DNA of 41,737 bases, from assembly GCA_031266175.1 (NCBI GenBank), contig JAISBN010000129.1:1-41737 (forward strand). Direction: 5' to 3'. The notes beneath the pieces are model-generated. The model searched no databases, was not told the origin of the DNA, and was given only the letters and a program-made list of their open reading frames with translations. Of this stretch, positions 10,277-16,172 are shown piece by piece (the first letter of the stretch is position 1; the number at the start of each line of letters is the position of its first letter). The position numbers and the translations under genes are program-made. This DNA is from Treponema sp. Lineage in GTDB: Bacteria > Spirochaetota > Spirochaetia > Treponematales > Breznakiellaceae.

Positions 10277-10332
<56 letters not shown>

Positions 10333-10446
10333 AAGAACCGTGCCAAGTGCGGGCAAAATCAGAGGTATTTTTCATTAATTCGGTAGTTTCTTTGCCTATT
10401 CTCAGCATGGATTTACGATACCACAGAGCGAAAACGGTTGTCAACT

Positions 10447-10622
10447 GCCCAAAATCCAGCATCCATGCTGGATTTTGGGCTTACGGTTTTGCTTTGCAAA
10501 ACCGTAAGCCCTATCCGCCCCAAGGGCGGATAGGCAGGCTCACAGCGCCATCCTTGGCGCCGCCCTTCGGGCGCAACCGCCATCCATGGCGGATTTTTGG
10601 CACCCTGCCCGCCTTTGGCGGG
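10447..10622. repeat. Cluster of seven consecutive hairpins upstream of fliG
   Basis: In order: 10447-10480 (two perfect 16-nt arms, 2-nt loop), 10479-10509 (14-nt arms, loop TTT), 10510-10534 (CCTATCCGCC arms), 10545-10560 (GCGCCA/TGGCGC), 10561-10573 (CGCCC/GGGCG), 10577-10592 (CCGCCAT/ATGGCGG, 2-nt loop), 10608-10622 (CCCGCC/GGCGGG, loop TTT). They fill the sequence just before the fliG promoter. The segment 10541-10575 resembles 8103-8135 in motif order (ACAGCGCC, TGGCGC, then CCCT-CGGGCGC). Confidence 0.85.
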
Positions 10623-14700: not shown

Positions 14701-14803
14701 GGAGCAGGCCGCCGCATCGGGGGTAGTGGTAATTACCGGGCCCGGGCAGGCGGAAAGGGCGGCGAAAAAGCTGGGAACGGCGGTAAAAACTCTGCCGGTT
14801 TAA
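11777..14803 (+). CDS. M16C-family zinc metallopeptidase (PreP/Cym1-like)
   Basis: A 1008-residue peptidasome that encloses and cleaves short peptides. The inverted zinc motif HILEH gives H65, E68 and H69, and a downstream glutamate in VVYNEMKGAYSS is the likely third ligand. Length and single-chain architecture (two M16 halves joined by a helical linker rich in K/E around residues 480-530) fit M16C presequence-protease relatives rather than the ~450-residue M16B proteins. There is no signal peptide, so it is probably cytoplasmic. Start ATG 11777 follows GGAGTAGGAG; the next codon is also ATG. It begins 53 bp after fliG on the same strand and may be co-transcribed. A GC-rich hairpin (CCGGGG/CCCCGG, 14818-14839) lies after the stop. 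Confidence 0.92.
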   Translation: MMKKGDSIHGFEVLETPELDELKARGIWARHRSGAELFHVLNDDPENLFSFAFATAPEDSSGAAHILEHSVLCGSERYPLKDAFLVLAQGSLQTFLNAWTFPDKTVYPASSVNEKDYFNLMAVYADAVFRPLLSEWTFMQEGWRLVPGKTGLEYTGVVYNEMKGAYSSMDTYAGLWSVKGIMPGTPYAFESGGDPDCIPGLSWEALREFHRTRYAPGNCKIFLAGNIGTEKQFEFLDGCLAGLPPGRAAPPIPTTERWQTPKTFRIPCPGSGQEENKNQALLSWLCSGSTDPGETTALACLAEILLGHDGSPLTRALIESGIGEDLSPVTGFEGELRETVFSAGLRGIQNNGDPEAAYRRMEDLILGELRRLVTEGIPKEEIDAALLSIEFSHREIKRSQGPYSLVWMRRALRGWLYGQRPWESLLFVPEFAKLKERLKSGEGVYTRCFESLIEKYLLHNPHHALIAVEGEADYLPQKEAELSRRLAEKARSLDKTEKKLLAEKAARLEKIQGEGESKAALETIPHLSRSDLVPEVEQVPSERISLSPADIPCLVHPLFTNGITYADLAFPVDVLPPEDYPWLPFFARAVVSVGLPGMDYGEVSSLLARTAGGFYALLETGSGAPETAADLPVPPDPAELPASLKARDWIIYRIKALDEKFGDSLDLAKRLIAEADFSDLRRLRDLAVEMKNDGDSSLAASGHSYASGRSGKFFSRSRAIDELWNGLDQIPFAHTLASMDMGELRDRMLSIRNALLNAGLTVNITASPEALAGARRGAEIFGGLGAPRPPHPLGRGKERFFSLLSQNPDPVPEVYASPSLQIGFAAMSLPAVPYGSPEQAAELALSHELSTGALWESIRMMGGAYGAFAHPDNLEGVFSLATYRDPDPLRSLGAFPPILKKRGSETIDEDSLEKIIIGAFARETRPRAPADKGFSEFLRRLYGIRQSHRLSRLKALVGLRAEETGAAARRLAGAAEQAAASGVVVITGPGQAERAAKKLGTAVKTLPV

Positions 14804-14882: not shown

Positions 14883-14911
14883 TTGACCGGGGTCCGGAAA
14901 TGTTATATATT
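14883..14911 (+). promoter_or_regulatory. Strong sigma70-like promoter in front of a non-coding transcript
   Basis: TTGACC (14883-14888), exactly 17 bp, TATATT (14906-14911). No start codon with a ribosome-binding site follows before the terminator at 14964-15008, which points to a small-RNA gene. Confidence 0.65.
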
Positions 14912-14917
14912 TTAAGT

Positions 14918-15008
14918 ATCTGATAGGCGATTTAGCGTATGGCTCTTCGGAGCGCTATCAGCGGCCTCCCAGGTTTCTTCACCTCCTTTTCCTGGGGGGC
15001 TTTTTTTT
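14918..15008 (+). ncRNA. Probable small RNA with anti-Shine-Dalgarno loop
   Basis: A ~91-nt transcript is predicted between the promoter (start near 14918) and the terminator T run. Stem 1 is CTGATAG (14920-14926) with CTATCAG (14955-14961), enclosing GCTC-TTCG-GAGC (14942-14953), a UUCG-tetraloop hairpin. Stem 2 is the terminator, whose 17-nt loop contains TTCACCTCCTTTT (14978-14990). That repeats the conserved 3' tail of 16S rRNA (UCACCUCCUU), so the loop could pair with Shine-Dalgarno sequences of mRNAs. No family I know (6S, SRP, tmRNA, RNase P) fits its size and motifs. It lies alone between the M16C peptidase and a convergent aminopeptidase gene. Confidence 0.6.
14964..15008 (+). terminator. 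Rho-independent terminator of the small RNA
   Basis: GCCTCCCAGG (14964-14973) pairs with CCTGGGGGGC (14991-15000), with one G-T pair, followed by eight T (15001-15008). The 17-nt loop is pyrimidine-rich. It could also terminate read-through from the M16C gene. Confidence 0.85.
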
Positions 15009-15062
15009 GCCGGAACACGGCGGCGCTGCTCCGTTCACGCCGCCCAAGCCGGCAGTCCCATT

Positions 15063-16172
15063 CTACACTGCCAGTTTTCCCTTCCGTTCTATGACGAGTA
15101 CCGAGCCGTTCGCCATATATGCGGTGATGGTGGGTTCCTTTACCAGCCCGTCCAGGTGGATGAGCGACGGCGCGTCGCTGTCGTAATTGTGGCCCACCGC
15201 GAAATGGCAGGTCTCGAAGGCTTTTTCATCCTCCAGCATCCCCCCGGTAATCCGGGCCCTGGGGTTAAGGCCGATGCCAAGCTCGCCTATGTTCCGGGCG
15301 TTCCGCCGGTACACTTCCCCCTGGCCTTCGGGGAGCCGCCCGGCTTTTTCGTAGTCCACGGCGTCCTTTTCCGCCAGGGTCACCGTTTCCAGCAGCGCCC
15401 CGGCTTCCCCGCCGCCGGAAATATCCGTCACATAGCCGTCTTTGACCCGGCAGCGGATCGGCTCCCTGATGATGATGTCCCCCCGGTGAAGGCTGATGGA
15501 ACCGTCAAAGACGATTGCGCCCTCGGCGGTACCGTTTTCCGGGCTGATAAAGCTTTCCCCCGCCGGCAGGTTTCCGCCCCTCCCCGGCAGGGAAAAATCG
15601 CCGTCGTCGGCTTTGGCTTCCCGGCCCTTCAGGCCCAGGGTCAGGTCCGTTCCCCCCGGAGCGGCGACATGGACCGATTCCGCCGCGCTCAGGACGGCGT
15701 TGACCGCGGCGCAGCGCCGGCCCAGCTCTGCGTAGTCGATGGGCACGGTACGGCCAAAGGATTCCAGGGTCGTGCCGGGAGACCAGAAGGAACGGCAGCT
15801 TTTTTCCCCGTACAGCTGCAGGTGAAAGATGTGATCGTATTCGGTCCCTTCGTAGCGGTAGGGCGCGGCAATGCCCCGTCTGTCTTTGCCGAGTTTTTCC
15901 GCGCTGACCGAAATCACCACCTGGGGCTTTGCCTGGAAAGCGGCAATCACCGCGGGTTCGGCAAAATCAAACTGGGTTTTAACCGGCTGGAACACCAGCG
16001 CCGGCGCGGCTCCCCGGTCCAGGGCGGCGTTGTACAATGCCCGGGAAATGGTTTCCACATCCTGCCGGAGATTGGTGATGATCAGAACCTGTTCGTCCTG
16101 GTGTACTTTTAACACATCGTCAATGGCAATACGGGCCGCTTCTTTGACTGCATCCATACCTATGCTTATCAC
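15063..16172 (-). CDS. M29-family aminopeptidase
   Basis: A 369-residue metal-dependent exopeptidase that removes N-terminal residues from peptides (family M29, AmpS/aminopeptidase T/PepS). The C-terminal metal-binding residues can be seen: the glutamate in NLPAGESFISP, that in IGELGIGLNPRA, and the histidine, tyrosine and aspartate cluster in CHFAVGHNYDSD and LIHLDGL. Probably cytoplasmic; no signal peptide. The frame begins with GTG 16172 (ISIGMDAVKEAAR); ATG 16157 is a fair alternative because neither has a clear ribosome-binding site. It is divergent from rsmE (60 bp between the starts) and convergent with the small-RNA gene. Confidence 0.88.
   Translation of the reverse strand: MISIGMDAVKEAARIAIDDVLKVHQDEQVLIITNLRQDVETISRALYNAALDRGAAPALVFQPVKTQFDFAEPAVIAAFQAKPQVVISVSAEKLGKDRRGIAAPYRYEGTEYDHIFHLQLYGEKSCRSFWSPGTTLESFGRTVPIDYAELGRRCAAVNAVLSAAESVHVAAPGGTDLTLGLKGREAKADDGDFSLPGRGGNLPAGESFISPENGTAEGAIVFDGSISLHRGDIIIREPIRCRVKDGYVTDISGGGEAGALLETVTLAEKDAVDYEKAGRLPEGQGEVYRRNARNIGELGIGLNPRARITGGMLEDEKAFETCHFAVGHNYDSDAPSLIHLDGLVKEPTITAYMANGSVLVIERKGKLAV

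Follow-up and report, generated by a model that had tools for sequence, protein, structure and literature searches.

The DNA analysed here, a window of 41,737 nucleotides from a Treponema sp. contig, contains a short stretch that raises the question of whether a transcription terminator can also act on translation. The preliminary description of this DNA read the stretch as a small RNA (sRNA) whose terminator loop repeats the anti-Shine-Dalgarno (anti-SD) tail of 16S rRNA. Its promoter (TTGACC/TATATT, 17-bp spacing) lies where that description had placed it, agrees with the consensus at 10 of 12 positions and is joint best (one of two) within the 10-20 kb region. Downstream of this sigma70-type promoter come a structured 5′ domain and then a strong terminator hairpin whose loop has 17 nt, UUUCUUCACCUCCUUUU. 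Counted from an expected start near 14918 through the last T of the run, at 15008, the transcript has a predicted length of ~91 nt. The two stems and the strong terminator were recovered in a predicted fold of -35.2 kcal/mol (z = -3.2), which none of 200 shuffles equalled. An absence of open reading frames had also been claimed; strictly, a mechanical ATG frame of 51 aa (14939-15094) spans the terminator, but it bears no sign of translation.

Table. Coordinates of the sRNA features in the window and of a second candidate RNA in Gracilinema-like genomes
Feature	Position	Strand	Basis
-35 box TTGACC	14883..14888	+	sequence; TTGAC-N16-18-TAnnnT common to related loci
-10 box TATATT, spacer 17 nt	14906..14911	+	sequence
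Type-B 5′ domain ATCTGATAGGCGATTTAGCGTATGGCTCTTCGGAGCGCTATCAGC: outer helix CTGATAG/CTATCAG, inner hairpin with UUCG loop	14918..14962	+	predicted fold; R1 matches
Terminator stem, 5′ arm GCCTCCCAGG	14964..14973	+	fold; covariation
Unpaired 17-nt loop TTTCTTCACCTCCTTTT, core ACCTCCTTTT	14974..14990	+	fold; comparison across loci
Terminator stem, 3′ arm CCTGGGGGGC	14991..15000	+	fold; covariation
T run, transcript 3′ end	15001..15008	+	sequence
Second C/U-rich candidate, L208	G015:C1:1910259-1910298		
Second C/U-rich candidate, L209	G018:C160:3741-3780		
Second C/U-rich candidate, L210	G014:C140:10887-10927		

The locus lies between convergent genes: an M16 (PreP-type) peptidase gene that stops at 14803 and, on the minus strand, an M29 aminopeptidase gene whose end is at 15063; beyond the latter comes an RNA methyltransferase gene (Pfam PF04452), which we take to be of the RsmE type. 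The motif CACCTCCTT occurs once in the window. Since 0.18 occurrences are expected by chance, the count alone is weak evidence and the case rests on conservation. Rfam 15 gave no match above the gathering threshold for the window RNA and 12 related loci, and a permissive threshold yielded sub-threshold chance matches only. An opposite-strand reading, in which AAAAGGAGGTGA is the SD of a reverse gene, was rejected as the hairpin sequence has no start codon at SD distance. Elsewhere in the window, positions 10443-10530 on the minus strand match the Rfam TD-2 RNA (51.1 bits, cut-off 48.7), a covariance model that found no match at the sRNA locus. That region forms three tandem long-stem hairpins (fold z -8.9), after which comes a (CA)n microsatellite at ~10281-10340; it may just as well be a repeat element as an RNA.

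The hairpin is found well beyond the window. A DNA search located a second, diverged copy on another contig of the same genome (L004, G000:C125:7332-7375), its stem altered by paired changes and its loop core kept. A pattern consisting of the loop core and a T run matched 122 of 200 Breznakiellaceae genomes, and its reversed form matched almost never. The same pattern matched 6 of 221 genomes from the order's four other families, which is the level of the reversed control; from these sequence searches we take the hairpin to be confined, within its order, to Breznakiellaceae. Scanning the GTDB genome collection with GGTTTNNTCACCTCCTTTTCC returned at least 118 stretches, and among the matches listed, 79 of the 80 with titles were Treponema, Spirochaetaceae, Spirochaetia, Breznakiella or Gracilinema. 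The match labelled Verrucomicrobia (L079) is without the stem, reads like coding sequence and was set aside as chance.

A covariance search for homologues with a hairpin model (R3) extended the set to 144 of 200 genomes and 50 of 57 genera of Breznakiellaceae, a count that includes a few weak matches (E 1e-4 to 1e-3). The complete genome G015, overlooked by the pattern search, has an 18-nt form. Most genomes carry a single copy. With a second copy in its own genome and a family-wide set of relatives, the locus is not the orphan it had been taken for. Nor is the hairpin universal in the family, because genera g6 and g11 (12 genomes in g11) had no hairpin with R3 at the thresholds used. Several genomes in these two genera are >90% complete, and lineage-specific loss or divergence there provides a natural experiment on function.

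Because the first searches required the loop, covariance models were also built from 5′ domains only, with the loop excluded. R1, made from the type-B 5′ domain, found loci in 15 genomes of 8 genera, and all 15 have both the loop and the T run. R2, made from the type-A 5′ domain, found loci in 34 genomes; the loop is present in 30 of 30 fetched, including genomes that the pattern had overlooked owing to a shorter T run. According to the preliminary description, only a terminator would be left if related genomes had lost the loop and their stems had changed at random. Instead, every one of the 45 inspected loci recovered by the loop-blind models keeps the loop.

The stem that carries the loop changes in a regular manner. 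Across 30 distinct hairpins, 98.3% of terminator stem cells pair and 7 of 10 pairs have changed on both sides, one of them occurring as GC, AU, CG and UA. Compensatory cells number 37 in these 30 hairpins, compared with 4.4 in shuffles and at most 6 with the partner slid. In the same 30 hairpins the loop is invariant at 15 of 17 positions. Pairwise identity averages 0.96 for the loop and 0.85 for the stem arms, but 0.26-0.30 for the flanks and the sampled variable 5′ region. A coding reading of the loop (LPGF-TSFS) was rejected, as the stem covaries and the loop is without variation at wobble positions.

The simplest alternative is a mere terminator of the upstream M16 peptidase gene whose likeness to the anti-SD arose by chance. 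The hairpin does lie where such a terminator is expected, 160 nt past the M16 stop codon and between convergent genes, and pyrimidine-rich loops are common. However, a chance loop does not account for positions held fixed while stems exchange pairs, for retention in every loop-blind match or for upstream genes that differ in other genomes. The sRNA also has a promoter of its own: a strict TTGAC-N16-18-TAnnnT stands upstream of 96 of 118 loci, while the opposite strand has one at 2 of 118 and dinucleotide shuffles yield one at a rate of 1.1%. The terminator reading is largely refuted and highly improbable. The locus is almost certainly a genuine conserved sRNA gene, predicted to be an independent transcription unit with its own promoter, a non-coding body, an intrinsic terminator and conservation as a unit. 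It has the conserved unpaired CCUCC-type motif that marks the anti-SD-loop class, and the earlier proposal of a real small RNA with a functional anti-SD loop is strongly supported by the retained loop, stem covariation and promoters.

Nearly every examined locus has the same layout, in which the promoter is followed by a 5′ domain of ~40-160 nt and then by the terminator. The 5′ domain itself comes in three types. Type A, the commonest, reads CTGATGATACGG...CCGTATTATCAG and belongs to RNAs of ~95-200 nt. Type B, that of the window, reads ATCTGATAGGC-ATTTAGCGTATGGCTC-GAGC-CTATCAG, and type C is short, with the loop TTTCATCACC. These domains are conserved, but their helices show too little variation, or too little of it in concert, for pairing to be proven. 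In L004, the second copy of the window's genome, the 5′ domain is long and G+C-rich, which sets it apart from most of type A, and an AMP-binding (acyl-CoA synthetase) gene follows.

Gracilinema-like genomes encode a second, different C/U-rich terminator RNA candidate with several anti-SD-like stretches per transcript. Here, TTCCTCATCTCATTCCTCCTTTC stands upstream of GCTCCCCGGG-TTTTTCTCCTTTT-CCCGGGGAGC, and the loop of L210 reads TTTCGACTCCTTTT.

Gene neighbourhoods bear on whether the sRNA acts in cis or in trans. Type B is mostly found near an M29 peptidase gene and/or an RNA methyltransferase gene. About 20 type-A loci, L004 included, lie just before a co-directional acyl-CoA synthetase gene (AMP-binding), which begins roughly 13-214 nt past the terminator. 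This arrangement would suit a cis-acting leader or attenuator of the downstream gene, in which a ligand, or pairing with an SD, governs termination. Against such a leader, the next gene in the window, that of the M29 peptidase, is convergent, many type-A loci (clusters 2 and 6) are without a co-directional downstream gene, and the inspected folds contain no alternative antiterminator helix. Other loci stand between unrelated divergent or convergent genes, for instance adjoining that of an AI-2E family transporter. A cis role is possible in the acyl-CoA synthetase setting, but it leaves the window copy and the relocated copies unaccounted for, and as an account of the family it is quite unlikely. 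Varied neighbours, and convergent or divergent settings with no co-directional downstream gene, are instead as expected for a trans-acting RNA.

What such an RNA might recognise is suggested by the loop itself. The 16S tail reads GGAUCACCUCCUUUC in four complete relatives, and the loop had been described as identical to this 3′ end. The identity holds for 11 nt, UCACCUCCUUU, and does not extend to the first and last U of the 13-mer then quoted. The core ACCTCCTTTT is invariant in the inspected terminators of the family. Less typical terminators vary before ACC (CCCACC, AACACC, UUACC, UUCACC) and leave ACCUCCUUUU unchanged. Era has specificity for GAUCA, reading GAUC before ACC. The loop could be regarded as imitating the 16S 3′ end so as to bind a protein instead of mRNA (e.g. 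Era, recognising the GAUCACCUCC tail, or ribosomal protein S1), tuning ribosome assembly or titrating the factor. The 11-nt identity with the 16S tail and type C loops reading AUCACCUCC are both in keeping with such a mimic. Yet the bases before ACC are variable (CCUC, UUC, CCC, AAC, CUU), while the SD complement ACCUCCUUUU is invariant. SD pairing fits better than imitation of the Era site because the fixed part of the loop is the complement of AAAAGGAGGU and the changes precede ACC; a protein-binding mimic is distinctly improbable.

The modest use of SDs in the host clade tells against SD pairing. GGAG is found before 16-37% of the starts of long ORFs in carriers, a minority, versus ~2-7% at internal ATGs, and reaches 30% in a sister-group sample. 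The predicted duplex of the loop with AAGGAGGU has an energy of -11.6 kcal/mol. The full 11-nt complement AAAGGAGGTGA was not found at gene starts in four genomes, the window's and three complete ones (G015, G141, G143). As a target finder this complement was abandoned, since it occurs near an ATG twice in the four genomes, both times inside coding regions. With no start bearing the full complement, pairing would use 6-9 nt, common to many SDs. Counts of AGGAGGT-ATG gave no clean separation of carriers from non-carriers. GAGGTG is rare at starts in both and nearly absent upstream of starts in carrier samples; this scarcity of the loop's complement possibly reflects avoidance. The preliminary description had gone further and proposed a global switch that spares leaderless mRNAs, a claim left unsupported by GGAG at 16-37% of starts and by the lack of any start with the 11-nt complement.

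A more selective role can also be imagined, in which the RNA is a sponge or dual RNA and its loop binds SD-like stretches in other small RNAs, or in a single main mRNA, instead of a broad set of SDs. The absence of full-length mRNA complements at starts and the single copy in most genomes are consistent with a sponge. However, no partner RNA was identified and the core corresponds to the SD in general and to no private sequence; a sponge is very unlikely. Whichever RNA is bound, Hfq may not be needed: a search for PF17209 found it absent from 6 genomes, including complete ones, with positive controls, and the sRNA is best read as Hfq-independent.

Blocking of SD sites is the most economical function to infer for the sRNA. 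The family is probably an undescribed one of trans-acting sRNAs that block SD sites through pairing of the terminator loop; pairing, repression and transcription in vivo are deduced from the sequence comparisons. The transcription unit would produce a non-coding, trans-acting RNA of ~91 nt. Its Rho-independent terminator would double as the pairing module, the covarying G+C-rich stem displaying a nearly invariant single-stranded loop, UUUYYUCACCUCCUUUU, that could pair with the purine-rich SD region (AAAAGGAGGU and parts of it) of mRNAs and block 30S binding. The 5′ domain, which differs by lineage (A, B, C), presumably sets stability, expression or target choice. A bolder extension is a clade-wide governor of translation: with its terminator serving as a portable copy of the 16S anti-SD tail, a single RNA would vie with the ribosome for SD sites across the genome. 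The level of the RNA would then shift translation between strong-SD genes and those with a weak SD or none, the 5′ domain being swapped and the mimic kept. This extension is unlikely.

The result is an uncatalogued sRNA family in about three quarters of the sampled Breznakiellaceae genomes, from termite guts and digesters. Hfq was not found in the six genomes searched for it, and no paper was found on the small RNAs of these bacteria. Searches of the spirochaete and Treponema literature returned nothing on this family among the papers listed, nor any paper joining Treponema, small RNA and anti-Shine-Dalgarno. With a near-invariant ribosomal docking sequence in a terminator loop, cultured relatives allow a direct test of whether regulation by one RNA through the general SD is feasible and where its specificity would come from.

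Short C-rich loops aimed at SD regions occur in the streptococcal csRNAs and in staphylococcal UCCC-loop RNAs (RsaE and others), which differ from the spirochaete sRNA in sequence and structure. The alpha-r14 or cuckoo RNAs (NfeR1 in Sinorhizobium) have hypervariable stems and conserved unpaired anti-SD motifs in their loops. Present in multiple copies, each with its own sigma70 promoter with conserved elements, they repress mRNAs at the translation initiation region (PMC7143759). The spirochaete sRNA is similar in its variable stem, conserved unpaired anti-SD loop, own sigma70-type promoter and more than one copy in the window's genome. However, alpha-r14 is alphaproteobacterial and has three hairpins with an anti-SD in each loop, whereas the window RNA has two stems and one anti-SD loop; its anti-SD always lies in the terminator loop, of 17 nt, and it falls outside the cuckoo family. 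In Neisseria, the sibling sRNAs NmsRA and NmsRB, also two copies, block translation of metabolic mRNAs with anti-SD motifs (PMC5362039). The window's genome likewise has two copies and an anti-SD motif, but the NmsRs carry two such segments per RNA and are unlike the spirochaete sRNA in structure and phylum. RepG of Helicobacter pylori targets a homopolymeric G-repeat in a single leader by base pairing (PMC8295292), whereas the spirochaete loop corresponds to the SD consensus and to the tail of 16S rRNA. By analogy, the spirochaete sRNA is best read as sharing the mode of action of alpha-r14, the NmsRs and RepG, while its sequence, structure and host range make it, as far as tested, a separate family.
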